64,000 bases of DNA. Origin: Lentzea tibetensis (lineage in GTDB: Bacteria; Actinomycetota; Actinomycetes; Mycobacteriales; Pseudonocardiaceae). Below, one piece after another: positions 53,265 to 64,000 of the stretch; the stretch's first letter is position 1, and each line of letters starts with the position of its first letter. The notes beneath the pieces were generated by a model, which saw only the letters and a list, made by a program, of their open reading frames with translations, searched no databases and had not been told where the DNA came from. Where the stretch lies: positions 1-64,000 of the forward strand of contig NZ_VOBR01000012.1 of the NCBI RefSeq assembly GCF_007845675.1, read 5' to 3'. The position numbers were made by a program, and so were the translations under genes.

Positions 53265-53523
53265 GAGCGCGCTCCCTTCCGACGACAAGTGGTTCCGACG
53301 GCCGAAAGCGTGCATCACCGAAGTGGGGGTTTTGGCTGCTCTGACGACACCTTGACACCTGTTGCGGCGTCCCTTACGCGTTCTTGATGCCGACGAGACC
53401 CCGGTCTCATCCCGACGAGGCCACGGCGGTCACCGGGCGTGATCCACCTCGGTGTGCCGCAGGGGGGCACGCGCGGCACGGTGATGGCACGGCCGTGGCA
53501 CACCCGTGTCACGCCTTGGAGGT

Positions 53524-54324
53524 ATGGGTGAAAACAGGGGTGGATTGACCCAGGTGCGGTACCGCGCGGGCAGCTGGCAGGTTCGGCTGGTCGGTGCGGT
53601 GGCCGTGCACGGGGTGAACGGCACGTGGGAAGCGCTCGACGTGGGGAGCCGCAAGGCGAGAACCCTGCTGGCGCTGCTCGGTGCGTCGCACGGACGGCTG
53701 GTCACCGTCGAAACCGTCGTGGACGAGCTGTGGGGAGACGAGCCGCCGCGGCAACCGGAGGCCAACGTCGCGACGCTGGTCAGCAGGCTGCGGGCGAAGT
53801 TCGGGCCGGACGTGATCGCGGGCGGCCGGCAGGGATACCGGCTGGGAAACGCGGTCGGGGTGGACCTGCACGACGCGGCCGACCTGGTGGCACAGGCGGA
53901 GGCCGCGCTGGGCAGCGGTCAGCCGCGGGCCGGGTTGCTCGCCGCCGAGCAGGCGCTCGAGCTGATCGGCGGGGGTCCGGTGCTCGCCGACCACCCGTCG
54001 TCGGAGTGGGCCGACCGGGCCCGTGCCAGGCAGGCCGAGCTGCTGCGCCGCGGCCGGCACACGGGTGCGGAATGCGCGTTGCGGGAAGGACTCTCGGCGC
54101 GAGCGCAGACGTTGGCCGAAGCCGCGATCACGGCGGATCTGCTCGACGAACGCGCCTACGGCATGCTGATGCGCGCCCACGTCGCGGTCGGCGAACCGGC
54201 CAGGGCACTCCTCGCCTACGAGCGGCTGCGCGCCACGCTGGCCGCCGAGCTGGGCACGCTCCCGGTCGCCGCGACCCGTGACCTGCACGTCTCCATCCTG
54301 CGGGCAGACGTGATCTCGGCGTGA
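53524..54324 (+). CDS. Short SARP-type transcriptional regulator (BTAD)
   Basis: A 266-residue SARP: winged-helix domain (VRLVGAVAVHGVNG, then RKARTLLALLGASHGRLV, then EANVATLVSRLRAKFG) and a bacterial transcriptional activation domain (DLHDAADLVAQAEAAL to LHVSILRAD). No ATPase domain. The ATG at 53524 has GGAGG almost adjacent, so the true start may be GTG 53506 or a later codon. It is the nearest SARP to the operon at 57.6-64 kb and a candidate to bind the TCACTGC repeats there. Confidence 0.9.
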   Translation: MGENRGGLTQVRYRAGSWQVRLVGAVAVHGVNGTWEALDVGSRKARTLLALLGASHGRLVTVETVVDELWGDEPPRQPEANVATLVSRLRAKFGPDVIAGGRQGYRLGNAVGVDLHDAADLVAQAEAALGSGQPRAGLLAAEQALELIGGGPVLADHPSSEWADRARARQAELLRRGRHTGAECALREGLSARAQTLAEAAITADLLDERAYGMLMRAHVAVGEPARALLAYERLRATLAAELGTLPVAATRDLHVSILRADVISA

Positions 54325-54389: not shown

Positions 54390-57300
54390 CTAGGGAGCCC
54401 TTTCGACGCGCCACTCGCGGGACGACGGCGCGTAGCGGCAGACGCCGCCGGTGGTGATGGCGGCGCACAGTTCGCCGCCGAGCACGGGGTCGTGCTCGCT
54501 GATGGCGTCGAGTGCCCGCTTGATGGCCTTGCGCACGGCGGTGCGCGCTCGTTCGGGCGTGGACGCGAAGCCGCGGACCTTGCTGCCGAGTCCCATCGCG
54601 CGGGCGAGCTCCGCGATCACCGCGTCCCGTTCCGACCGCAACCGCTGCGCCTTGCCCGGATCCGCGTTGGCCTCCGCGTCCTCGATGGCCTGCTCGAGGT
54701 CGCGCACGTGTCTTCGATAGGAGTCGACGGCCGCGTCGTCGAGCAGCTCGTGCCTGCCGGCCAGCACCGCCGACCCGACCAGTTCGACGGCGGCGATGTC
54801 CTCGCCCGGCTGCTCGAGGAGCCGGGCCACGTAGTCGATGCCGATCAGGTCCGGCAGGTCGAAGCAGGTCGTACCGCTGCGCACCGACCACTCACCGCCG
54901 CCGCAGCGCAGCACCGCGGGCGTCGTCGACGGTGCCAGCGCCTCGGCCTTGGCGGTCCACTCGTGCACGCGCTCGGACAGGTCCATCGCCGCCGCCTCGT
55001 CGATCGCCTGCGCGAGCAGGGCACGGGCCCGCGCGAGATCACCCGGTTTGGCACGCGCGACGAGCGCCTCGGCGAGCCGCGCCCGGCTGAGCGCGGTCGC
55101 CGGTCGGTTCTCGAGTCGGAGGTTGGTCTGGACAGCTCTGGTCAGGTACTCGACCGCGGCCATCGCATCCCCGGCGATCAGCGACGCGACACCGAGCGCA
55201 CCGGAGGCCGAACCCAGGCAGCACACCGCGAGCGAGACCGTGACCGGCAGGTGGGCGAACGGCCGCAGGAGGCCGGCCACCTCTGCGGCCAGCGCGGGGT
55301 CGTTCAGCAGCGCGGCGGCCTCGACGAGCACCACCATCGCGGCCAGCCAGGTGCTCGACTTCGGCATGTTGGCCAGCCCCATGCCGAGCAGCGGCGCCAA
55401 AGCCGCCCTCGCCTCGGCCTCCCGGCCGTCGCGGGCGAGCACCATCACCGCCGACGCCCGGAAGCCGTACTCGCCGACAGCGAGGGTGGCGGAGGTCAGC
55501 GTGTTGGTGACGAGGTCGGCCAACTCGGCGTCCCGCCCCTGGTACCACCGGATGTTCAGCAGCTGCGCGGCGTGGTAGCCGACCGAGTCGGCGTCGCCGA
55601 CCGCGAGGCCGAGCCGCAGGCAGCTCCCGGCAGCCGCCTCCGCCGCACCGAACCGGCCGGCCCGGATGTGCCGCATGACGTCCATGCACGCCACGATGTA
55701 ACCGGTGCTGGCCACGCCCAGCGTGGCCGACCGCTGGCGCAGCTCGGTCAGCGATCGCTCGGCCTCCGGATCGCCGAGCAGGTACAGGTCGGTGGTGCGC
55801 CACAGCAGTCCGAACAGCGCGAGGATCCCGTCGCCTGCCGCCGAGGCCGCCGCGATCTGCTCCTCGGCGAGCGGCAGCCGCATCGCCGCGTGCTCGGGGC
55901 TGAGCAACGCGTGGTGGGTCAGCGAGAGCGCGTCCGCCACCGCGTGCGGGTCACCGGTCGCACGGGTCCGGTCCAGCGCGTCCAGCACCTCCGGTACCGG
56001 TGCGCCCTCGTAGACGGCCTCGGCGGCGAGTCGCACCGCGAGCCGGCAGCGCAACGACCGCTCGTGCTCCGGCAGCGCGGCCAACGCGGCCCGCTGCCTG
56101 GCCAGCACGTGCGCCCGGACGGCCGCGTTGCGGTACTCGTGCACCCAGACACCGCCCAGCCCCAGCACGGCCCTGGCGGTCAGCACCGGATCACCGGTCA
56201 GCTCGGCGGCCTCGGTCGCGTCCTCGAACTCCGCTCGCGCGTGACTCAACCGTCCGCAGGCCAGCACCGCGTCGGCGTGTTCGACCAGCAGCTCGGCGCG
56301 GCCCGGCAGGTCCTGCCTCTGCTGTGCCAGCGCCGCCGCCCTGCCGAGCAGGTCCGCGGCGCGCTCGTAGGCGTAGCCGCGGCGCAACGACTCGGCGGCC
56401 GCGCGGCACGCGTTGATCGCGATCACGGTGTCGGCGTCGGACCGGACGGCGGCGGCGAGCGCGTGGTGGGCGATTCGCTCGGGGTTGCCCGTCAGGATGG
56501 CCGCGGCACGGGAATGCGCGTCGAGCAGCCGCACGGTGTCGAACTGGCCGAGTGCGGCCTCCCGGACGAGGTCGTGGAACCGGAACCCGTTCGGCGTCAG
56601 GTCGAGCAGTCCCTCGTCCGAGGCCGCGGTGAGCGCTTCCAGCACCTCGCCGGGTGATCGGCCGGCGAGGCTCGCGATCTCGCCCGTGGTGCCGTCGACG
56701 CCGAGCAGGGCGGCGCACGCGAGGATGCCGCGGTGCGGTGGCGACAGCCGGGTGACGGCTTCGGTGATGGCGTGCTCGAGGGTCGCCGGCCCGGATCCCG
56801 TCCAGCCGAGCTCCACCGCGCGGGCGAGGTACAGCGGGCTGCCGCCGGTGACGCGCATGAGCGTCCTGGCCGTGGTGCGGTCCGGTCTGGGCTGACCGTG
56901 CGCCTCCAGCAGCGCTTCGACGTCGCCGATGTCGAAGCGCCGCAACGTGATCGTCGCCGCGGTCGCCCGCAGCTCGCCGAGCAGCGCGTCGGCTGTCTGG
57001 CCGCTCTCCACCGGGGTGTTGCGGGTGGTGAGGATCATGATCAGCGGGAGCCGGTCGAGTGCGCCCGCGAGGAACCGGGTCAGCAGCAGCGCGCTCTCGT
57101 CGGCGTAGTGCACGTCGTCGACGACGATCATGGTCGGTTTGTCCGCGCGGGTCTCGGTGAGCAGCTCGGCCACCGCGGCGAACCGGGCGAAGCGCTCCGG
57201 GTCGACGCCGTCCCGGCCGGAGTCCGCGGCCAGCAGACTGGAACCCGCGGGACCGGCCAGCGCGGGCAGGACGGCGGGCCACGGCCACAAGGCGGGTGCG

Positions 57301-57503
57301 CCACCGTGCGGCCAGCACCGGCCCCACACCACCTCGAAGCCGTCGCGCTGAGCCGCCGCCGACGCCTGTTCGCAGAACCAGGTCTTGCCGACGCCCGCCT
57401 CACCGCTCACCACGACGAGTTGGCGGCGACCTCTCCTCGCCCGCGCTCTTGCCGCGGCCAGCACCTCGAGCTCATGACCACGACCGACAAACGTGCCTTC
57501 CAC
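54390..57503 (-). CDS. Large AAA-type transcriptional regulator (LuxR/MalT-like without LuxR tail)
   Basis: A 1037-residue protein. An N-terminal STAND-type ATPase has Walker A SGEAGVGKTWFC near residue 36 and Walker B MIVVDDVHYAD near residue 125; a long helical-repeat middle follows (about 330-840). The C-terminal ~170 residues hold a mixed domain with LEQAIEDAEANADPGKAQRLRSE and ARTAVRKAIKRALDAI, seen at the end of many actinobacterial AfsR/adenylate-cyclase-like regulators instead of a LuxR helix-turn-helix. GTG start at 57503. It may sense a signal for the adjacent operon. Confidence 0.85.
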   Translation of the reverse strand: MEGTFVGRGHELEVLAAARARARRGRRQLVVVSGEAGVGKTWFCEQASAAAQRDGFEVVWGRCWPHGGAPALWPWPAVLPALAGPAGSSLLAADSGRDGVDPERFARFAAVAELLTETRADKPTMIVVDDVHYADESALLLTRFLAGALDRLPLIMILTTRNTPVESGQTADALLGELRATAATITLRRFDIGDVEALLEAHGQPRPDRTTARTLMRVTGGSPLYLARAVELGWTGSGPATLEHAITEAVTRLSPPHRGILACAALLGVDGTTGEIASLAGRSPGEVLEALTAASDEGLLDLTPNGFRFHDLVREAALGQFDTVRLLDAHSRAAAILTGNPERIAHHALAAAVRSDADTVIAINACRAAAESLRRGYAYERAADLLGRAAALAQQRQDLPGRAELLVEHADAVLACGRLSHARAEFEDATEAAELTGDPVLTARAVLGLGGVWVHEYRNAAVRAHVLARQRAALAALPEHERSLRCRLAVRLAAEAVYEGAPVPEVLDALDRTRATGDPHAVADALSLTHHALLSPEHAAMRLPLAEEQIAAASAAGDGILALFGLLWRTTDLYLLGDPEAERSLTELRQRSATLGVASTGYIVACMDVMRHIRAGRFGAAEAAAGSCLRLGLAVGDADSVGYHAAQLLNIRWYQGRDAELADLVTNTLTSATLAVGEYGFRASAVMVLARDGREAEARAALAPLLGMGLANMPKSSTWLAAMVVLVEAAALLNDPALAAEVAGLLRPFAHLPVTVSLAVCCLGSASGALGVASLIAGDAMAAVEYLTRAVQTNLRLENRPATALSRARLAEALVARAKPGDLARARALLAQAIDEAAAMDLSERVHEWTAKAEALAPSTTPAVLRCGGGEWSVRSGTTCFDLPDLIGIDYVARLLEQPGEDIAAVELVGSAVLAGRHELLDDAAVDSYRRHVRDLEQAIEDAEANADPGKAQRLRSERDAVIAELARAMGLGSKVRGFASTPERARTAVRKAIKRALDAISEHDPVLGGELCAAITTGGVCRYAPSSREWRVERAP

Positions 57504-57607: not shown

Positions 57608-58591
57608 GTGCTCGAGCAGGATGTCGTGCGACGGACCGCGTCCGCCGTCGAGAAGCTCACCGGAAGTCAAGGCGCCGAACAGGTGTGGATCGCGGAGCCG
57701 TCACCGCGCGCCGACATCGCGGCGAACCAGTTCGTCGTGTTCCTCAAACCGGAGGTCACCGCCGTCGCCGCGGGGGTGCGCTTCGCCGAGGTGTACGAGA
57801 TGGTGCTGAGCACCCTCGCGGCGCACGCGGTCGACGTGCACGCCGTGCGGGTCGTCAACGGACCGTTCGTCGAGCGAGCACGCATGATGGAGGGCCACTA
57901 CGGCGTCATCAACGAGGTTTCCCGGTTGGGAGAACCCGCGCTGTCCCCCGCCGCGCTGGCGGCGCTGCGTGACCGCTTCACCGGCGCGGACGTGCTCGGC
58001 GCGCACCAGTTCCTCGCGCGGTTCCCGCAGTTCTCGGCATTCGCGCTCGCCACGCTGTTCGGCAACGTCGCAAACGTGAAGCTCGCGTCCGGAACGTATG
58101 CGGGCGCGGTGTCGGTGCTGGGCAACGAGATCGTGCTGTTGAACGGTTTCCACCCGTTCCAGCTCGAGCGCTTCACCCGGCCGGAAGCGGTCGTCGTGAT
58201 CCTGGAATGCGCGGCGGCCACCCCGTGGAAAGTGCTGCGGCAGCACGTGGCCGGGGCCACCGACTCCGCCGCGGCCGCACGGGGCTCGATTCGGCGGACG
58301 TTGTTCGACCGCGCCGCGGAATTCGGCCTGAGCGGGCGGTCGAACGGGTTTCACCTGTCCGCGGGCCCACTGGAGGGCCTGGTGGAGATGCGCCGCTTCT
58401 TCGGCGACGCGGCGACCACGTTCGACCGTTTGCTGCTCGACGGCGGCCTTTCCCCTGAACAGGTCTCGCGGCTCACCGAGAATCCTGTGCTGCACACGGG
58501 CGGTACGCCCGCGCCGGCATTCGACCTGACCGAAGAGATGGATGCCGCCGAGGCCGCCGTCGCCCTGCGGACAGCGCTGGACCAGCGCTAG
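57608..58591 (+). CDS. Nucleoside-diphosphate-kinase-like protein, large variant
   Basis: A 327-residue protein that I read as a distant NDK. FVVFLKPEV near residue 41 parallels the NDK opening strand; HYGVI follows near residue 98; VVVILE near residue 198, then GATDSAAAARGSIR near residue 219 matches the NDK segment G-x-TDP-x-x-A-x-PGTIR; and NGFHLSAG near residue 246 matches NxxHGSD with the catalytic His. NDKs are about 140 residues; the extra length is an insertion of about 90 residues after HYGVI. Function in this operon is unknown; it may phosphorylate or transfer phosphate to a nucleotide-like intermediate. GTG start at 57608. Confidence 0.55.
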   Translation: MLEQDVVRRTASAVEKLTGSQGAEQVWIAEPSPRADIAANQFVVFLKPEVTAVAAGVRFAEVYEMVLSTLAAHAVDVHAVRVVNGPFVERARMMEGHYGVINEVSRLGEPALSPAALAALRDRFTGADVLGAHQFLARFPQFSAFALATLFGNVANVKLASGTYAGAVSVLGNEIVLLNGFHPFQLERFTRPEAVVVILECAAATPWKVLRQHVAGATDSAAAARGSIRRTLFDRAAEFGLSGRSNGFHLSAGPLEGLVEMRRFFGDAATTFDRLLLDGGLSPEQVSRLTENPVLHTGGTPAPAFDLTEEMDAAEAAVALRTALDQR

Positions 58592-58602
58592 TTCCCTCCC
58601 GT

Positions 58603-58635
58603 TCACTGCAACATCACTGCAACGTCACTGCAATC
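58603..58635 (+). promoter_or_regulatory. Triple 11-bp direct repeat, putative SARP operator F
   Basis: TCACTGCAAC occurs at 58603 and 58614, with TCACTGCAAT at 58625, exact 11-bp steps. The array ends 58 bp before the ATG at 58693, the same distance as arrays A, C, D and E in the polyketide cluster, but the sequence differs from TTYCAG. A weak TATGTT lies at 58644-58649. Confidence 0.8.
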
Positions 58636-58692
58636 CCCCTGGCTATGTTCCTGTTCCAGGAAAACGCATTCGGGCCGATGGGGAGTTGTTTG

Positions 58693-59730
58693 ATGAAAGG
58701 GTCATTGAGTCCTGGAAAGCTCCGCTTTCGCGCTCCAAGATCGTGGCAAGAGCCAGAAGGTCATTTCCTGGTGGCGTTGTCCGACCCGTGGTACCGCACC
58801 CTGGTGCAGGCGCAGGACACCATTGCCACCACCACTTCCACGTTCTGGTCGGCCCGCGGTGTGAAATCGTTGCTGCTGCCGGTGACGACGGGGTCGATCT
58901 CCTCACCGATGGGCCTCGGCAGCGACTCCGAGCCGGTTCTGGTCGAGCTGAACGGCGCGCCGACCTACCTCGCGGACTCCATGCAGTTCATGCTCGAGTA
59001 CGGCTGCCGGCTGTCACCCGGCGGGGCCTACTACCTCATGCCGTCGTTCCGCGGCGAGATGCCGGACGCGACGCACCTCAACGAGTTCTTCCACAGCGAG
59101 GCCGAGATCCCGGGCGAGCTCGACGACGTGATCGACGCGGTCGAGGCGTACGTGCGGACGATGTCCGGTGCGCTCGTGGCCGAACACGCCGAGGACATCG
59201 CTTCGGTCGCGGGCGATGTGACCCACCTGGAGGACCTGCACTCCTCGCCCGCCTCGCTGCCGAGGCTCACGTTCGACGAGGCGGTCGCCGTGCTGGGCAG
59301 GCTCGGTGGCGAGGTGCGCACCGATCCCGTGCACGGTTTCCGCACCATGCCGCGGGAATCGGAGCAGCTGCTCATGGAGCACTGCGGCGGAATGCTGTGG
59401 CTGACCCACTTCGACCGGCTGGCCGTTCCGTTCTACCAGGCCGATGTGGACGGCAAGGCCGTCGCCGCCGACCTGCTCATGGGACAGGGCGAGACCGCCG
59501 GTGCCGGGCAGCGCCACACGACCGGTGCCGAGGCGCGTGCCGCACTCGCCGCCCACAACGTGGCGGAAGAGGAATACGCCTGGTACGTCACGATGAAGGA
59601 CCGCTACCCGATGCTCACGTCCGGCTTCGGACTCGGCATCGAGCGGTTCCTGCTGTGGGTGTTCAACCACGACGACGTGCGCGACCTGCAGCTGCTGCCG
59701 CGCATGCGCGGGCGGGTCATCCTGCCATGA
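58693..59730 (+). CDS. Asparaginyl-tRNA-synthetase-like ligase without anticodon domain
   Basis: A 345-residue class II aminoacyl-tRNA-synthetase core. SPMGLGSDSEPV lies in the N-terminal part, the motif 2-like segment SFRGEMPDATHLNEFFHSEAEI near residue 120 and motif 3 GFGLGIERFLLWVF near residue 317 match AsnRS/AspRS and archaeal AsnA-like enzymes. The N-terminal OB-fold anticodon-binding domain is absent, so tRNA recognition is doubtful and amino-acid activation for amide bond formation is more likely. I choose ATG 58693, 7 bases after GGGGAG; ATGs at 58645 and 58678 are weaker. Its stop overlaps the MccF-like start (ATGA). Confidence 0.85.
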   Translation: MKGSLSPGKLRFRAPRSWQEPEGHFLVALSDPWYRTLVQAQDTIATTTSTFWSARGVKSLLLPVTTGSISSPMGLGSDSEPVLVELNGAPTYLADSMQFMLEYGCRLSPGGAYYLMPSFRGEMPDATHLNEFFHSEAEIPGELDDVIDAVEAYVRTMSGALVAEHAEDIASVAGDVTHLEDLHSSPASLPRLTFDEAVAVLGRLGGEVRTDPVHGFRTMPRESEQLLMEHCGGMLWLTHFDRLAVPFYQADVDGKAVAADLLMGQGETAGAGQRHTTGAEARAALAAHNVAEEEYAWYVTMKDRYPMLTSGFGLGIERFLLWVFNHDDVRDLQLLPRMRGRVILP

Positions 59731-60737
59731 CCGGCAGCGCCGTGCTGCCACCGCGTCTGCGACCGGGCGACGTGGTGGCGGTGATCTCACCGTCCGCCGG
59801 TGACGCCGCCCGGTACGCCCGGCGCGCCGCCCGCGGCGTACGAGCGCTGGAAGAACTCGGGTTCGTCGTCGACGTCATGCCGAACGCCACGCGTGACCGG
59901 TCCTGGGTGTCGGGCACCGTGCGGGAACGCGTCGACGACGTCCACCGGGCGTTCGCCGATGAACGGGTGCGCGCCATCGCCTCGTTCATCGGCGGCAACC
60001 ACAGCGCCCAGCTGCTGGGGTCGCTGGACCACGACCTGATCGCCGGCAACCCCAAGGTGCTGTTCGGGTACTCGGACATGACCAGCCTGCTGCACGCGGT
60101 GCACCGGATGACCGGGCTGGTGACGTTCTACGGGCCACAGGTGCTCCCCCAGTTCGGGGAGTGGCCGCGGCCGATGCGGGAGACCGTCGACCACTTTCGG
60201 GCGGTGACGTCGGTCGCCGCACCGGCGGGCGCGTTCCCGGTGCTCGACGGCATCGTCCGCGAGTTCATCGACTGGGCCGACGACGAAGTGCGGCCGCGCG
60301 AACAGGAGAAGGCGACCGGACGCCGGGTGATCCGCGACGGCCGCGCTCGCGGGCCGCTCGTCGCCGGGTGCCTGCCCACCATCCGGCACCTCGTCGGAAC
60401 ACCGTGGCAGGTCGACTGCCGGGGCAGCGTTCTCGTGCTCGACATCCCCGACTCCCGGTACCGCGTCGCCGACGCCGACGCCGACCTGTGGCACCTGCGC
60501 AACGCGCGGATCATGGACGGCCTCGCCGGTCTGGTGGTCTGCCGGTCGCGGCACTTCGACGAGCCGCTGACCGACCAGCTGTGCGACGTGATCGACGAAG
60601 TGACGCGGCCGTACGGGTTTCCGGTGCTCGCCGAGTTCGAGAGCGGCCACGGCGACCCGGCGCTGACGATTCCCATCGGGCCGGTCGCCGAGCTGTCCGG
60701 TGCCGAACTGACCGTGCTGGACGCCGCTGTGTGCTGA
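59727..60737 (+). CDS. S66 peptidase, MccF/LD-carboxypeptidase family
   Basis: A 336-residue Ser peptidase. The nucleophile is Ser in FGYSDMTSLL near residue 113 and the His in EFESGHGDPALT near residue 306; the Glu of the triad is probably in the LVCR/DE region between. Length and the GYSDMT form favour MccF over LdcA. MccF hydrolyses the amide or phosphoramidate bond of acylated nucleotide antibiotics of the microcin C type and gives self-immunity. Next to an aaRS-like ligase this suggests that the operon makes, or protects against, an aminoacyl-nucleotide analogue. Confidence 0.88.
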   Translation: MTGSAVLPPRLRPGDVVAVISPSAGDAARYARRAARGVRALEELGFVVDVMPNATRDRSWVSGTVRERVDDVHRAFADERVRAIASFIGGNHSAQLLGSLDHDLIAGNPKVLFGYSDMTSLLHAVHRMTGLVTFYGPQVLPQFGEWPRPMRETVDHFRAVTSVAAPAGAFPVLDGIVREFIDWADDEVRPREQEKATGRRVIRDGRARGPLVAGCLPTIRHLVGTPWQVDCRGSVLVLDIPDSRYRVADADADLWHLRNARIMDGLAGLVVCRSRHFDEPLTDQLCDVIDEVTRPYGFPVLAEFESGHGDPALTIPIGPVAELSGAELTVLDAAVC

Positions 60738-60765
60738 GCCGTGAATCCCATCCCGAGGCAATGGA

Positions 60766-61665
60766 GTGACCGCGTTGTTGGACAACCTGTCTTTGCGAGA
60801 CGACACCCGAGAAGCCGACCTGCCGTACGTCGACCTGCTGTCGCTCGTCGGTGAGACGAACCGCTGCCCCGGCGGCAAGCGGACCGTGCTGAGCATCGCC
60901 AGGCGGCTGGGCATCGGGCGTGACACGAAGGTGCTGGAGATCGGCTCGAACACCGGGTTCACCTCGACCGAACTGGTCAAGATCACCGGGTGCACGGCCG
61001 TCGGCGTCGACGTGAACCCGGCCGCCGTCGCCCAGTCCGAGATGATGCGCAAGTCCCTCGTGGACAGCATCGGCGACCGGATGCGGTTCCACGTGGCCGA
61101 CGCGGCGTCGCTCCCGTTCGAGGACGACAGCTTCGACGTGATCGTCTGCGGTGGCGCGAACACCTTCATCCAGGAGAGGGAAGCGGCCTTCCAGGAGTAC
61201 GCCAGGGTGCTGCGGCCCTACGGGTTCGTCTCGGTCACCAACCTCTACTACCGGCGGCGGCCGGACCAGGCGCTGCAGGACGACCTGCGCGACGTGCTCG
61301 GCTTCTCCGTGCCCGCACTCGGAGTCGAGGAGTGGCTGGAGATCCTCGCTCCGGCGGCCTGGGAGATGTACGACCTGAAGCTCTCCGAGCTGGCCGTCCG
61401 CGCGGACCACGTGCTGGACGCCTACGTGGCCGAGCTCTGCTCGCCGGAGCGGCTCGGGCACATCGACGAGGAGCAGCGGCGCCAGGTCAGCGCGCAGTGG
61501 CACCGGGTGATGAGCGTGTTCAACCGCAACAACGCCCACCTCGGGTTCATGGAGCTGACGCTGCGCAACCAGGAACCGGGCGACGAGGAGCAGCCCGAGC
61601 TGTTCCTGATGCCTGGCGTGTACGACCCGTACTTCGAGAAGGCCTTCGTGGGGATGAACGACTGA
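60766..61665 (+). CDS. SAM-dependent methyltransferase (class I)
   Basis: A 299-residue methyltransferase: LEIGSNTGFTSTEL near residue 57 is SAM motif I, VGVDVNPAAV follows, and FDVIVCGGAN is motif II/post. C-terminal part (residues 190-299) is helical, with ELFLMPGVYDPYFEKAF at the end. GTG start at 60766 with GAGG upstream. It probably methylates C, N or O of an amino acid or sugar-like intermediate; the precise substrate is not readable. Confidence 0.88.
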   Translation: MTALLDNLSLRDDTREADLPYVDLLSLVGETNRCPGGKRTVLSIARRLGIGRDTKVLEIGSNTGFTSTELVKITGCTAVGVDVNPAAVAQSEMMRKSLVDSIGDRMRFHVADAASLPFEDDSFDVIVCGGANTFIQEREAAFQEYARVLRPYGFVSVTNLYYRRRPDQALQDDLRDVLGFSVPALGVEEWLEILAPAAWEMYDLKLSELAVRADHVLDAYVAELCSPERLGHIDEEQRRQVSAQWHRVMSVFNRNNAHLGFMELTLRNQEPGDEEQPELFLMPGVYDPYFEKAFVGMND

Positions 61666-63005
61666 TGACGGACGTCTCGGTCACGGCACCAGCGCGCGGT
61701 CGCGACTTCCCCGCCCGCGTCGCCGAGCGCCTGCCGTACCTCACCCGCGACGACGACGGACGCGCGTTGCTGCACGGCCGGGACGCCGGAGAACTGCTGA
61801 CCCAGCACGGGTCTCCGGTGCTGGTGCTGCTCCCGGACCGAGCCGCGGACAACGTGCGCAGCGTCAAGGCCGCGTTCGGCGAGCACTTCCCCGACGTCTC
61901 GGTGCACTACGCGGTGAAGGCGTGCTACCACGCCGGAGTAGTGCTGGCCGCGAAGGACGCCGGTGCCGGGATCGAGGTCATGAGCGGTCTCGAGCTGCAG
62001 ATCGCGCGGCAGCTCGGTTTCCGGGCGGACCAGATCGTGCTCAACGGGCTGGGCAGGGACGAGGCGTACGTCCGAGGCTGCATCGACGTCCCCGAAGCGC
62101 TGAACGTGCTGGACACCTGGGACGACGTCGACGCGATCGCCCGTGCGGCACAACAGGCGCAGGTCGTGGTCGACGTGGCCGTCCGGGTCACGCCGTGGAT
62201 GCCGCTGGAGCTCGACGGCGCGACGCCGCGGGACAGCAAGCTCGGCAACCACGTCGACGGCGAGTCGTTCTGGCGGCTGCTCCGCGCGGTGACGGACAAC
62301 CCGTGGCTGAACCTCCGCGGGCTGCACGGGCACCAGTTCACCAGGGCCGCGTCGCTCGAGGACTACGGCCACTACCTCGAGGGCTTCGCCGATGTCGTGG
62401 TGGAGGCGGACAAGCGCGGACACCGGTTCGCCGTGCTGGACATCGGCGGCGGTTTCGAGGCGCGGTCCGCACTCGAGGCGCGCGGCGTGCGGATCGACGA
62501 CTTCGCCGCCGTCGCGGCCGAGAAGCTGGCCGTCGTGCCCAGCGGCTACCGGCTGGTCGTCGAACCGGGACGCTACGTGGCCGCGGACGCCGCGGTGGGG
62601 CTCACCAAGGTCCGCGCCCGCAAACCCCGTGACGGCTTCACCTGGCAGATCGTCGACCTGGCCACCAACGTGCTCATCCCGGTTCCCGGCGCGGAGTACT
62701 ACCCGGTCGTGCTCCAGGAGGACGCGGGCGACCGGACGACGATCGCCCGGATCGGCGACGGGACCTGCGCACCGTCGACGATGTGCGACGACGTCGAGCT
62801 GCCCGACGTGCGCGGCGGTGCCGGCCTGGCGATGCTGAACTGCGGGGCCTACACCACGGTGTTCAGCCACGTCTGGGGTCCGCGGCCACCGGCGGTGGTG
62901 TCGATGGACGGCGACGGCGTCGTCGAGGTGGTCGCGGGGCCCGCCGAGTTCACCGCGATCGCGAAGGCCATGTACGGCTACGACCTGGACCTGGGTGCGT
63001 CGTGA
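61665..63005 (+). CDS. PLP-dependent decarboxylase (fold III, ornithine/DAP type)
   Basis: A 446-residue alanine-racemase-fold decarboxylase. The PLP Lys is in VHYAVKACYH near residue 84, the phosphate-binding glycine loop is LDIGGGFEA near residue 257, EPGRYV near residue 304, and the Cys-containing loop GDGTCAPSTMCDDV near residue 364 replaces the GPxCxSxD of diaminopimelate and ornithine decarboxylases. It starts at ATG 61665, overlapping the methyltransferase stop (TGATG). A decarboxylated amino acid is therefore a probable building block. Confidence 0.92.
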   Translation: MTDVSVTAPARGRDFPARVAERLPYLTRDDDGRALLHGRDAGELLTQHGSPVLVLLPDRAADNVRSVKAAFGEHFPDVSVHYAVKACYHAGVVLAAKDAGAGIEVMSGLELQIARQLGFRADQIVLNGLGRDEAYVRGCIDVPEALNVLDTWDDVDAIARAAQQAQVVVDVAVRVTPWMPLELDGATPRDSKLGNHVDGESFWRLLRAVTDNPWLNLRGLHGHQFTRAASLEDYGHYLEGFADVVVEADKRGHRFAVLDIGGGFEARSALEARGVRIDDFAAVAAEKLAVVPSGYRLVVEPGRYVAADAAVGLTKVRARKPRDGFTWQIVDLATNVLIPVPGAEYYPVVLQEDAGDRTTIARIGDGTCAPSTMCDDVELPDVRGGAGLAMLNCGAYTTVFSHVWGPRPPAVVSMDGDGVVEVVAGPAEFTAIAKAMYGYDLDLGAS

Positions 63006-63901
63006 CCATTCCACCACCCGACCTCGTCTCCTGGGCGCACGAGGAGATCGGGGCGATCCAGCTGGCGACACCTCTGTCCACTTCGAACAGTCGGGTGTGG
63101 AGGGCAGCCACCTCGTCGGGTGACTGGGTGCTGAAGCACCTGAGCGACCTGTCCAGCACGCCCGAGGTCGAGTCGTTCGTGCTCGCGGAGCTGCGCGACC
63201 GGCCGGACGTCCGGCCGATCAAGGCGTTCCGGTCGTGCGCGGACGGTTCGACCTACCTCATCGCCGAGTACGCGCACGGGCGGACCCTCGACGAGTGCCT
63301 CGCCACCGCGAAGCCCGCCGCGGCGGGCGGGTGGGCCAGTCAGCTCAACGACCTGATCGACGCGGTCAGCCGGATTCCCGTGACGGGCTACGGAAAAGTC
63401 CGGCTGGGACCGGACGGGCTGTGCGCCGAGCACGACAGTTGGCCTGGGTTCCTCGAGGACTACTTGGAAGGGCAGCGCGTCAAGGCGCCCCGCCTGGCGG
63501 AGCTGCGGTACGACCGGCTGCACCGGGCCCTGGTGGCCGCGCGCGCCGAGCTGGCCGCGGCCGCGCCACTCCCCCGCCTCGTGCTGGCGGACGTGAACCT
63601 GCGCAACTTCGTGGTCGGCACCTCGGGCCTGGTGTGCTGCAACATCCCGGTGCTGTGGGCGGGCGATCCGGCCGCGTCCCGCGGTGAGGCCCTGCTGCAC
63701 TGGGCGGGCACGGCAGGCGAGCCGGTGCTGACCTCCGCGTCCGGGCTGCTGCACTTCTACGCCGCGTTCCACGCCTACGTGATCCTCGCCTACGTCGAGC
63801 GCTTCTCGCCCGAACCGCTCGACCGCGCCACGCCGTGGGGATCCGACACGCCTCTGCTCCAGCTGCTGGACCGGCACCTGCTCGGTGCGGAAGGAGCGTG
63901 A
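63002..63901 (+). CDS. Aminoglycoside-phosphotransferase-like kinase, altered catalytic site
   Basis: A 299-residue protein of the APH/choline-kinase fold. WVLKHLSD holds the ATP-binding Lys near residue 45 and LIAEYAHGRTLDE the hinge. The catalytic loop is LVLADVNLRNFVV near residue 199: Asp and Asn are kept, but the usual His-x-Asp is Ala-Asp. The metal-binding Asp of the following D-x-D/E segment is replaced (CCNIPVLWAGDP). It may be an active variant or a pseudokinase. GTG start at 63002 overlaps the decarboxylase stop (GTGA). Confidence 0.78.
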   Translation: MTIPPPDLVSWAHEEIGAIQLATPLSTSNSRVWRAATSSGDWVLKHLSDLSSTPEVESFVLAELRDRPDVRPIKAFRSCADGSTYLIAEYAHGRTLDECLATAKPAAAGGWASQLNDLIDAVSRIPVTGYGKVRLGPDGLCAEHDSWPGFLEDYLEGQRVKAPRLAELRYDRLHRALVAARAELAAAAPLPRLVLADVNLRNFVVGTSGLVCCNIPVLWAGDPAASRGEALLHWAGTAGEPVLTSASGLLHFYAAFHAYVILAYVERFSPEPLDRATPWGSDTPLLQLLDRHLLGAEGA

Positions 63902-63905
63902 GCAC

Positions 63906-64000
63906 GTGCCGGTCGCCCAGAAACCGAAGGCGCTGACGGGGTTCGACGACCGCCACCTGCACGCGCTCCGCGTCGCGTACGGGTTGGCGGACGTGGACGC
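63906..64000 (+). CDS. Start of a further gene of the second operon, truncated by the window edge
   Basis: A GTG at 63906, with GGAG about ten bases upstream, opens a frame beginning MPVAQKPKALTGFDDRH that stays open to the end of the window (31 codons). It follows the kinase-like gene by 4 bp. Too short to assign a family. Confidence 0.55.
   Translation, partial: MPVAQKPKALTGFDDRHLHALRVAYGLADVD

Follow-up and report, generated by a model that had tools for sequence, protein, structure and literature searches.

Organization of the locus

The stretch analyzed here (the window) comprises bases 1–64000 of the 248,950-base contig NZ_VOBR01000012.1 from the 9.36-Mb genome of Lentzea tibetensis, and its right end carries an operon whose first gene, g2, encodes a truncated asparaginyl-tRNA synthetase (AsnRS) resembling the agrocin 84 synthetase AgnA. 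A further 36 kb beyond the right edge was added and genes were examined to approximately 72 kb; positions above 64000 are contig coordinates, and window and contig positions coincide. A preliminary description of the window had proposed six abutting or overlapping genes, with one transcription unit from 58.69 kb on. All six (g1 to g6) lie where they were placed, and the preferred g2 start, an ATG at 58693, is supported by a GGGGAG motif 7 nt upstream. The operon is real and, as had been expected, runs past the window edge, from 58.69 to 68.46 kb, with its last gene ending at 68462. The gene set recurs in other genomes, as described below, and is therefore no chance assembly. The operon and its upstream element are organized as follows:

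58603..58635, + strand: three tandem 11-bp repeats (TCACTGCAA..), operator-like, upstream of g2; two pair matches vs 0.01 expected
58693..59730, + strand: g2, AgnA-like truncated AsnRS, proposed N–P bond-forming ligase; tRNA-synt_2 4.5e-26
59727..60737, + strand: g3, MccF/AgnC5-like S66 peptidase; S66 N 3e-31, S66 C 9e-22
60766..61665, + strand: g4, MccD-like transferase with a class I S-adenosylmethionine (SAM) fold; best Protein Data Bank (PDB) match 5FCD
61665..63005, + strand: g5, LysA-fold pyridoxal phosphate decarboxylase, distant relative of the MccE N-domain; Orn_Arg_deC_N 1.6e-27
63002..63901, + strand: g6, APH-like phosphotransferase 1, marker of the L. tibetensis-type block; APH 1.9e-7
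63906..64952 (start 63885 also possible), + strand: g7, APH-like phosphotransferase 2; crosses the window edge
64949–65620, + strand: g8, Mrp/NUBPL/MinD-type NTPase; beyond the window
65607–66542, + strand: g9, JmjC/cupin-8 protein; beyond the window
66535–67575, + strand: g10, HprK-like protein; beyond the window
67572–68462, + strand: g11, HAD protein with a weak NUDIX part; beyond the window

A truncated AsnRS related to AgnA

The earlier labels of g2, g3 and g6 as a class II aminoacyl-tRNA synthetase (aaRS) core without a tRNA domain, an MccF-like peptidase and a kinase-like gene agree with the domain matches listed above. For g2, only the class II core was matched, and searches of Pfam and NCBIfam gave no anticodon-domain match. 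The protein is 41.4% identical to AgnA over 338 amino acids (5.6e-86), and a tblastn search of plasmids with g2 led to the gene of pAgK84 annotated as agnA, Agrocin84-synthetase. The available portion of PMC4392301 describes agnA as a truncated AsnRS homolog without the anticodon-binding domain. A role of g2 as a resistant copy of an AsnRS target was considered and dropped, as the anticodon domain was not found.

The substrate pocket is nearly constant across 94 aligned rows of the AgnA family (duplicates included, and with three rows resembling true aspartyl-tRNA synthetase, AspRS). Arg290, equivalent to R364 of PhAsnRS, is present in 94/94 rows and Glu152 (E228) in 91/94, and leucine stands in place of the AspRS lysine in 91/94. 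We take these three positions to bind or select the asparagine side chain; if these roles are right, the constant pocket implies that an asparagine-like substrate is used whatever the companion aaRS.

NCBIfam ranks asparagine synthetase A (205.8 bits) and asparagine-tRNA ligase highest as names for g2, and a solved truncated archaeal relative, 3P8T, is named archaeal asparagine synthetase A. With this enzyme and AsnRS, g2 shares the class II core, the motif 2 and motif 3 residues and the AsnRS-type pocket. An ordinary amide pathway could therefore be envisaged from these names, in which g2 amidates a small-molecule carboxylate, the S66 protein is an LD-carboxypeptidase and no nucleotide is produced. 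However, the score falls below the curated asparagine synthetase A cut-off of 322 bits, g2 differs from AsnRS in having no anticodon domain, and its context is that of a natural product. Such a pathway would also leave the MccD- and MccF-like partners, and the companion aaRS and HIT genes of related loci, unexplained, and we regard it as improbable.

Partners resembling MccF, MccD and MccE

Reference genes for microcin C were taken from the Escherichia coli ATCC 25922 plasmid NZ_CP009074, with the names MccB to MccF assigned by gene order and the literature; there, genes for ThiF, MFS, SAM transferase and GNAT proteins stand in a row, and the S66 gene adjoins on the other strand. Those for agrocin 84 were taken from plasmid pAgK84 (CP000632), where agnA, a SAM transferase gene, agnB2 (encoding a leucyl-tRNA synthetase, LeuRS) and agnC5 all lie on one strand. 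The g3 protein is 32.8% identical to AgnC5 (1.9e-49) and 29.7% identical to MccF (2.8e-43), retains Ser116 and His308, and has MccF chains as its best solved structures, ranked above murein-peptide carboxypeptidases. The g4 protein matches the SAM transferase encoded beside agnA (28.6%, 5.5e-41) and MccD (30.7% over 179 aa, 1.9e-29), with MccD (5FCD) as its top PDB match (1.5e-22); a short 36% stretch over 50 aa is shared with agnC3 (1.9e-4). The relation of g5 to MccE is weak (18.7% over 402 aa, 5.2e-8); 20 of the 36 residues invariant in nine LysA-group rows are also present in MccE, and g5 gave no match to plasmids at 1e-30.

According to the accessible parts of PMC10491745 and PMC12250964, MccD and the N-domain of MccE form an aminopropylation pair. 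The gene previously labeled a methyltransferase thus probably encodes a 3-amino-3-carboxypropyl transferase, with the decarboxylase g5 as its probable partner by analogy with MccD and MccE. On these homologies, the combination of methyltransferase, decarboxylase and MccF reads best as MccD, MccE-N and MccF.

A putative phosphoramidate nucleotide pathway

We consider it likely, judging from these protein relationships, that an N-acyl-phosphoramidate nucleotide, acting as a stable aminoacyl-adenylate mimic of the agrocin 84 and microcin C kind, is both produced and detoxified by the operon. In such a pathway, AgnA-like g2 would use an asparagine-like substrate and ATP to form the acyl-NH-phosphate-nucleoside bond. 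MccD-like g4 would transfer a 3-amino-3-carboxypropyl group to the phosphate, with SAM as donor, and LysA-fold g5 would decarboxylate that group, or first make decarboxy-SAM, to give an aminopropyl group. MccF-like g3 would cleave the acyl–N bond, providing immunity and perhaps serving biosynthesis as well. The two APH-type kinases, the JmjC oxygenase, the HprK-like protein and the HAD/NUDIX protein may serve to form the acyl or nucleotide part, or to mask or unmask it, and a co-regulated ribosomal peptide (21 aa, PqqD-bound and CPBP-processed) is a possible carrier peptide, with export by an MFS transporter. Given a phosphoramidate nucleotide pathway, we lean toward aminopropylation of the product, whereas a peptide part in it is somewhat doubtful.

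The preliminary description had suggested an adenylate-like or phosphoramidate product with MccF-type self-protection, and this gains support from the 41% AgnA homology together with the MccD, MccE-N (weak) and MccF/AgnC5 matches. Its statement that the genes fit no nameable pathway has to be given up, as the core has two characterized relatives. With agrocin 84, the L. tibetensis operon shares the AgnA-like truncated AsnRS, a related SAM transferase and the MccF-like AgnC5; these were the only convincing matches among the 19 agn-region proteins compared, and no convincing match to the acyl-part enzymes AgnC1–C4, C6 and C7 was found among the L. tibetensis proteins. Agrocin 84 has a LeuRS immunity gene (AgnB2), whereas L. 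tibetensis has an additional decarboxylase, kinases, JmjC and HprK-like proteins and a peptide unit. With microcin C, the MccD- and MccF-like proteins are shared, g5 distantly resembles MccE-N, and L. tibetensis also has a possible ribosomal peptide. The microcin C precursor is the heptapeptide MRTGNAN, whereas the L. tibetensis peptide is dissimilar, with 21 aa and a leader-like motif; no MccA-type heptapeptide was found, the search being confined to open reading frames (ORFs) of at least 20 aa. To our knowledge, few natural inhibitors of aaRS act as aminoacyl-adenylate mimics (agrocin 84, microcin C and phosmidosine), and we know of no gene cluster reported for phosmidosine. This compound from Streptomyces durhameusis, described in the available part of PMC6429109 as a phosphoramidate nucleotide antibiotic, likewise comes from an actinomycete and is not comparable by sequence.

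Spread and partners of the AgnA family

For a census of the AgnA family, a nine-sequence alignment was scanned against the contigs of 84,980 species, yielding 111 relatives, of which the best 80 were kept; the prefilter consisted of two short peptide patterns, so the 111 loci are not a complete set. Kinship is close among some of the 80 (a single genome contributes both L102 and L103), and some are truncated by contig ends. The family occurs among Actinomycetota, Bacillota, Patescibacteria, Poribacteria, Elusimicrobia, Myxococcus and gammaproteobacteria. Genes like g2 were found in 8 of 150 family genomes at 1e-20 and in 2 of 396 phylum genomes at 1e-40 (L. tibetensis counted in each).

Gene content was assessed by tblastn with the L. 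tibetensis proteins, which detected S66 in 61 of the 80 loci, MccD-like genes in 36, APH2 in 10, MinD in 9, LysA and APH1 in 7 each, HprK in 3 and JmjC in 1. With a custom gene-calling script, trained on the L. tibetensis operon for high-GC loci, S66 was recognized at 54/80 loci, in 50 of them within five genes of AgnA and in 49 on the AgnA strand. All seven loci with LysA also hold an MccD-like gene (P 0.0026 by counting, with kinship ignored although four are near relatives).

An aaRS gene or fragment accompanies AgnA in at least 30 of the 80 loci (three ThrRS-like fragments included), on the same strand in 25; this is a raw count of similarity groups without a random-window background, and single aaRS of other kinds would escape it. 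Ten of these proteins were compared with NCBIfam, of which eight matched aaRS models (one being a ThrRS-like fragment) and two matched nothing, and four further class II proteins were checked with Pfam (two of L073, one each of L042 and L049). The names obtained for representatives cover histidine, proline, glycine, cysteine, methionine, leucine and threonine tRNA ligases. Copies were counted in three genomes representing two cluster types: HisRS-like genes number three in both G127 and G132, and in each genome two lie no more than about 20 kb from AgnA; of the three MetRS-like genes of G057, one is inside the cluster. Such extra copies are what a self-resistance gene modeled on AgnB2 would look like; the available sections of PMC5059758 and PMC7157772 treat AgnB2 and MccF as immunity proteins. 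Nine loci carry two aaRS-like genes (L042, L049, L061, L066, L071, L073, L074, L083 and L106), both of the GlyRS group in L066, L071 and L073 and both of the Pro/ThrRS group in L042, L049 and L061. One gene of each pair may provide immunity and the other may be a biosynthetic ligase.

Other gene settings were also observed. A HIT-group gene and two further conserved genes adjoin AgnA in the proteobacterial loci L085, L092 and L097 (HIT confirmed by Pfam for L085 only). According to the accessible text of PMC7157772, HIT hydrolases attack microcin-C-like toxins at their phosphoramide bond, and HIT genes beside AgnA speak for the phosphoramidate reading. In L018, L020, L054, L058, L081, L088, L090, L096, L102, L103 and L109, AgnA directly follows a berberine-bridge-type FAD oxidase (BBE) gene, often beside nonribosomal peptide synthetase-group genes (Pfam checked on L018). 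TfuA-, YcaO- and ThiS-group genes accompany AgnA in L048, L101, L106 and L108 (types checked with Pfam on L108 and L048), with a MetRS-group gene in three of the four; these loci form a possible thioamide-bearing branch of the family. Homologs of agnC1, agnC3 and agnC6 occur in L038, L039 and L050, and agnC2 is also present in L038 and L050; by comparison with the pAgK84 region (L110 24711–30375), these are near kin of agrocin 84 in actinomycetes. On a Xenorhabdus bovienii megaplasmid (L112 6424–20162), genes for an AgnA-like protein, a SAM transferase, S66, a nucleoside phosphorylase, LeuRS and a second aaRS-like protein lie on one strand, adjoining an XyeA/XyeB triceptide locus. On a Pantoea agglomerans plasmid (L111 9512–11107), an AgnA-like region lies within a gene annotated as a GNAT N-acetyltransferase, next to an MFS gene, and this is perhaps a synthesis and immunity unit in one protein.

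Recurrence of the operon and the AgnA–S66 pair

Co-occurrence in other genomes, which the preliminary description had suggested checking, is observed. Genome G545 holds MccD-like, LysA, AgnA, S66, APH1, APH2, MinD, JmjC, HprK and NUDIX genes, and L087, from a Poribacteria metagenome-assembled genome (MAG), has the same set minus a recognized NUDIX gene. L076 and the Umezawaea locus L105 (genome G060) carry AgnA, S66, APH1, APH2, MinD and HprK. In the Streptomycetaceae loci L084, L094, L095 and L098, AgnA is accompanied on the opposite strand by APH2, MinD, LysA, an MccD-like gene and an S66 match. These four loci (from S. alanosinicus, S. stelliscabiei, S. scabiei and a MAG) also carry a CysRS gene. 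The marker gene g6 is rare: with L. tibetensis counted, it is carried by 3 of the 391 genomes searched at family level and by 1 of the 394 searched at class level.

Trees were built for AgnA (85 rows) and S66 (64 rows), without the rows of six duplicate loci; where a locus had a second AgnA-group member, it was replaced by motif. Branch support comes from SH-aLRT alone, and the branches of two S66 rows are very long. The AgnA tree places g2 as sister to L030 (support 100) and outside a clade formed by G545, L087, L076, L105 and the L084 group (98). In the S66 tree, g3 is nearest to L030 (pair support only 78) within an 11-row set (98), apart from a clade of G545, L087, L076 and L105 (100). In contrast, g6–g10 are 52–60% identical to their G545 counterparts, and g4 and g5 reach 51% with L057 and 43% with L053, respectively. 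Because g2/g3, g4/g5 and g6–g10 have different nearest relatives, the operon appears to be a mosaic, and by their phylogeny AgnA and S66 look like a pair. The preliminary description had named two outcomes that would refute it, a well-known pathway in the extended sequence or independent scattering of the genes in relatives. The result is mixed: the extension revealed no such pathway, but the genes reassort in part, though not singly and at random, as the AgnA/S66 lineage differs from that of g6–g10.

This pairing bears on a special form of the phosphoramidate explanation, in which AgnA is a constant nitrogen donor that converts asparagine and ATP into an aspartyl-NH-nucleotide. S66 would then be biosynthetic, freeing an H2N-phosphate-nucleotide for other ligases to charge with the target-specific amino acid, and the varying aaRS-like genes would be partly loading ligases and partly immunity genes. 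The pocket residues that stay constant while the companion aaRS type varies, the presence of S66 in 61/80 loci, the two aaRS-like genes in nine loci, and the shared affinity of g2 and g3 for L030, outside the block-carrier clade, all fit this scheme. However, 19/80 loci show no S66 match within the stretch of sequence available for each, the roles of E228, R364 and the AspRS lysine are our assumption, and the available text of PMC7157772 and PMC5059758 assigns MccF and AgnB2 a known role in immunity. Given a phosphoramidate nucleotide pathway, we regard an asparagine-donor role of AgnA as tentative and rather unlikely.

Operator-like repeats, flanking genes and the peptide unit

Features flanking the operon are listed below:

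53506..54324, + strand: SARP-type regulator gene, candidate activator; BTAD 5e-20, Trans_reg_C 1e-7
54390..57503, − strand: large AAA_16 ATPase protein, possible pathway regulator; AAA_16 1.6e-18
57608..58591, + strand: g1, 327 aa, weakly nucleoside diphosphate kinase (NDK)-like; Pfam/NCBIfam below cut-off
68452–68471, + strand: fourth CACTGCAA site; beyond the window
68548–68613, + strand: candidate precursor peptide ORF, 21 codons; beyond the window
68618–68660, + strand: hairpin after the peptide ORF; beyond the window
68682–68936, + strand: g12, PqqD protein; PF05402
68929–69657, + strand: g13, CPBP protease; beyond the window
69647–70450, + strand: g14, nucleotidyltransferase-fold protein; beyond the window
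70447–71673, + strand: g15, MFS transporter; beyond the window

The "NDK-like" label of g1 holds only loosely, as its scores (Pfam 0.03, NCBIfam 0.003) are well under both cut-offs; a g1 homolog does lie approximately 7–10 kb from the corresponding block in G060 (29.6%, 4e-18). In Umezawaea (L019 5503–6684), a SAM-synthetase-like gene, spotted by eye, adjoins the g1 homolog and could supply SAM for aminopropylation. Because the threefold 11-bp tandem repeat sits between g1 and g2, g1 is probably a transcription unit separate from g2 onward.

A search of both strands over 100 kb found four copies of the motif CACTGCAA. Three copies stand in 11-bp tandem directly before g2, where 0.01 tandem repeat pairs would be expected by chance in the window, and the fourth precedes the peptide ORF, together with two TGCAAT elements 11 bp apart. 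Repeats spaced by 11 bp are the usual SARP site, and the SARP-type gene at 53506..54324 encodes a candidate activator. The peptide ORF has a ribosome-binding site and encodes MRNYSKPALRKVSIRKAVIGI, 21 aa with a YxxPxL motif; such motifs in lasso peptides are bound by PqqD-type proteins. A 15-bp hairpin (z −6.5) lies behind the ORF, and g12 matches PF05402 with 59.2 bits vs a cut-off of 23.4. The peptide unit (68548–71673) thus shares a rare repeated operator with the operon, which suggests a ribosomal peptide part. The unit boundary was judged by this shared operator because recurrence of the PqqD unit (1/388 family genomes, L. tibetensis itself) could not settle it. No match to Rfam was found within the window or in L003 1–12000, and a pattern scan for promoters and terminators near the peptide ORF found none.

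A PF05402 protein, a short YxxPxL peptide ORF and a following hairpin are also features of PqqD- or RiPP recognition element-dependent, lasso-type ribosomally synthesized and post-translationally modified peptides (RiPPs). Together with the CPBP protease and the shared operator, they would suit a RiPP pathway in which the 21-aa peptide is the substrate of the AsnRS-like, JmjC, HprK-like and kinase proteins and the product is not a nucleotide toxin. However, no lasso cyclase, B2 protease or radical SAM enzyme was recognized among the called genes of 68–72 kb. The same enzymes occur at other L. tibetensis-type loci (G060, G545, L087 and L076) where no nearby PqqD gene or similar peptide was found; G060 and G545 have PqqD genes elsewhere in the genome. 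Agrocin 84, moreover, presumably has no ribosomal peptide. A plain RiPP operon was accordingly dropped, and we consider this pathway improbable.

Points against the phosphoramidate nucleotide pathway

Several observations weigh against the phosphoramidate nucleotide pathway in L. tibetensis, or against parts of it. In g3, Asp239 occupies the position of MccF Glu243, which we take to be catalytic; 5 of the 67 S66 sequences aligned have this aspartate. For g5, the general LysA model (152.8 bits; cut-off 297.9) is a closer match than MccE, which makes the g5 step the weakest. Identity to G545 is 29% for g4 and 40% for g5. Among 16 L. tibetensis proteins, no match to MccB (ThiF) or MccC was obtained at E <= 1; no acetyltransferase (GNAT) domain was found either. 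Across the family, none of the 11 BBE-oxidase loci has an S66 or MccD-like match, and the chemistry of AgnA may therefore be used for other products as well.

No companion aaRS was recognized in the L. tibetensis cluster. Proteins at 54.4–71.7 kb gave no match to AgnB2 beyond chance, and an aaRS motif screen of 53.4–80 kb flagged none, although this screen is weak and found no class II enzyme anywhere. The contig has no tRNA-synt_2b, tRNA-synt_1 or further tRNA-synt_2 match. In the genome, no clear extra copy was found in the families tested, which did not include Ala, Phe, Arg, Glu/Gln, Trp and Tyr. Five tRNA-synt_2b matches equal the number needed for the Gly, His, Pro, Ser and Thr enzymes. 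Another five, to tRNA-synt_2, correspond by frame length and expectation to AspRS, LysRS, two LysX-like proteins and AgnA, none being necessarily AsnRS. One MetRS match lies at the set limit, and two strong and several weak class I matches were found. With neither a companion aaRS nor a clear extra copy, the genome points to no particular target.

The peptide part faces objections of its own. No peptide homolog was found, and no relative of the PqqD protein g12 was detected at 1e-12 in 387 other genomes of the same family. Other L. tibetensis-type loci showed no counterpart of the peptide unit, so the peptide step rests on one genome. A screen for YxxPxL gave two unconvincing matches in L022, none in seven other loci and one each in L087 and G545; taken alone this is weak evidence, since the motif also arises by chance. 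A hairpin with a T run at approximately 68495–68521, seen by eye (−8.7 kcal/mol, z −2.4), makes an intrinsic terminator between operon and peptide unit possible.

Significance

The operon had been called an undescribed one. Its kind is known from agrocin 84 and microcin C, whereas the L. tibetensis combination and the breadth of the AgnA family are new as far as the literature search reaches: open papers, with most subscription journals outside, yielded no description of the combination, the AgnA spread, the varying companion aaRS or the AgnA–S66 pairing. As a conjecture, and an unlikely one, the truncated AsnRS could be the shared engine of phylum-spanning adenylate-mimic antibiotics, in which an asparagine-fed N–P maker and S66 are kept while the acyl part and the attacked aaRS (Leu, Met, His, Pro, Thr, Gly or Cys) are swapped. 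In L. tibetensis, this engine would be joined to the aminopropyl enzymes of microcin C and a ribosomal peptide, as a Trojan horse without MccB.

The L. tibetensis operon would combine the logic of agrocin and microcin C in one gene run. With one pocket, many companions and natural AgnA–S66 pairs, this set of loci makes the question of the AgnA reaction testable. If the AgnA family acts as its context suggests, many of the 111 loci, in several phyla, would encode new aaRS inhibitors, and the companion aaRS gene, where present, would name the likely target.

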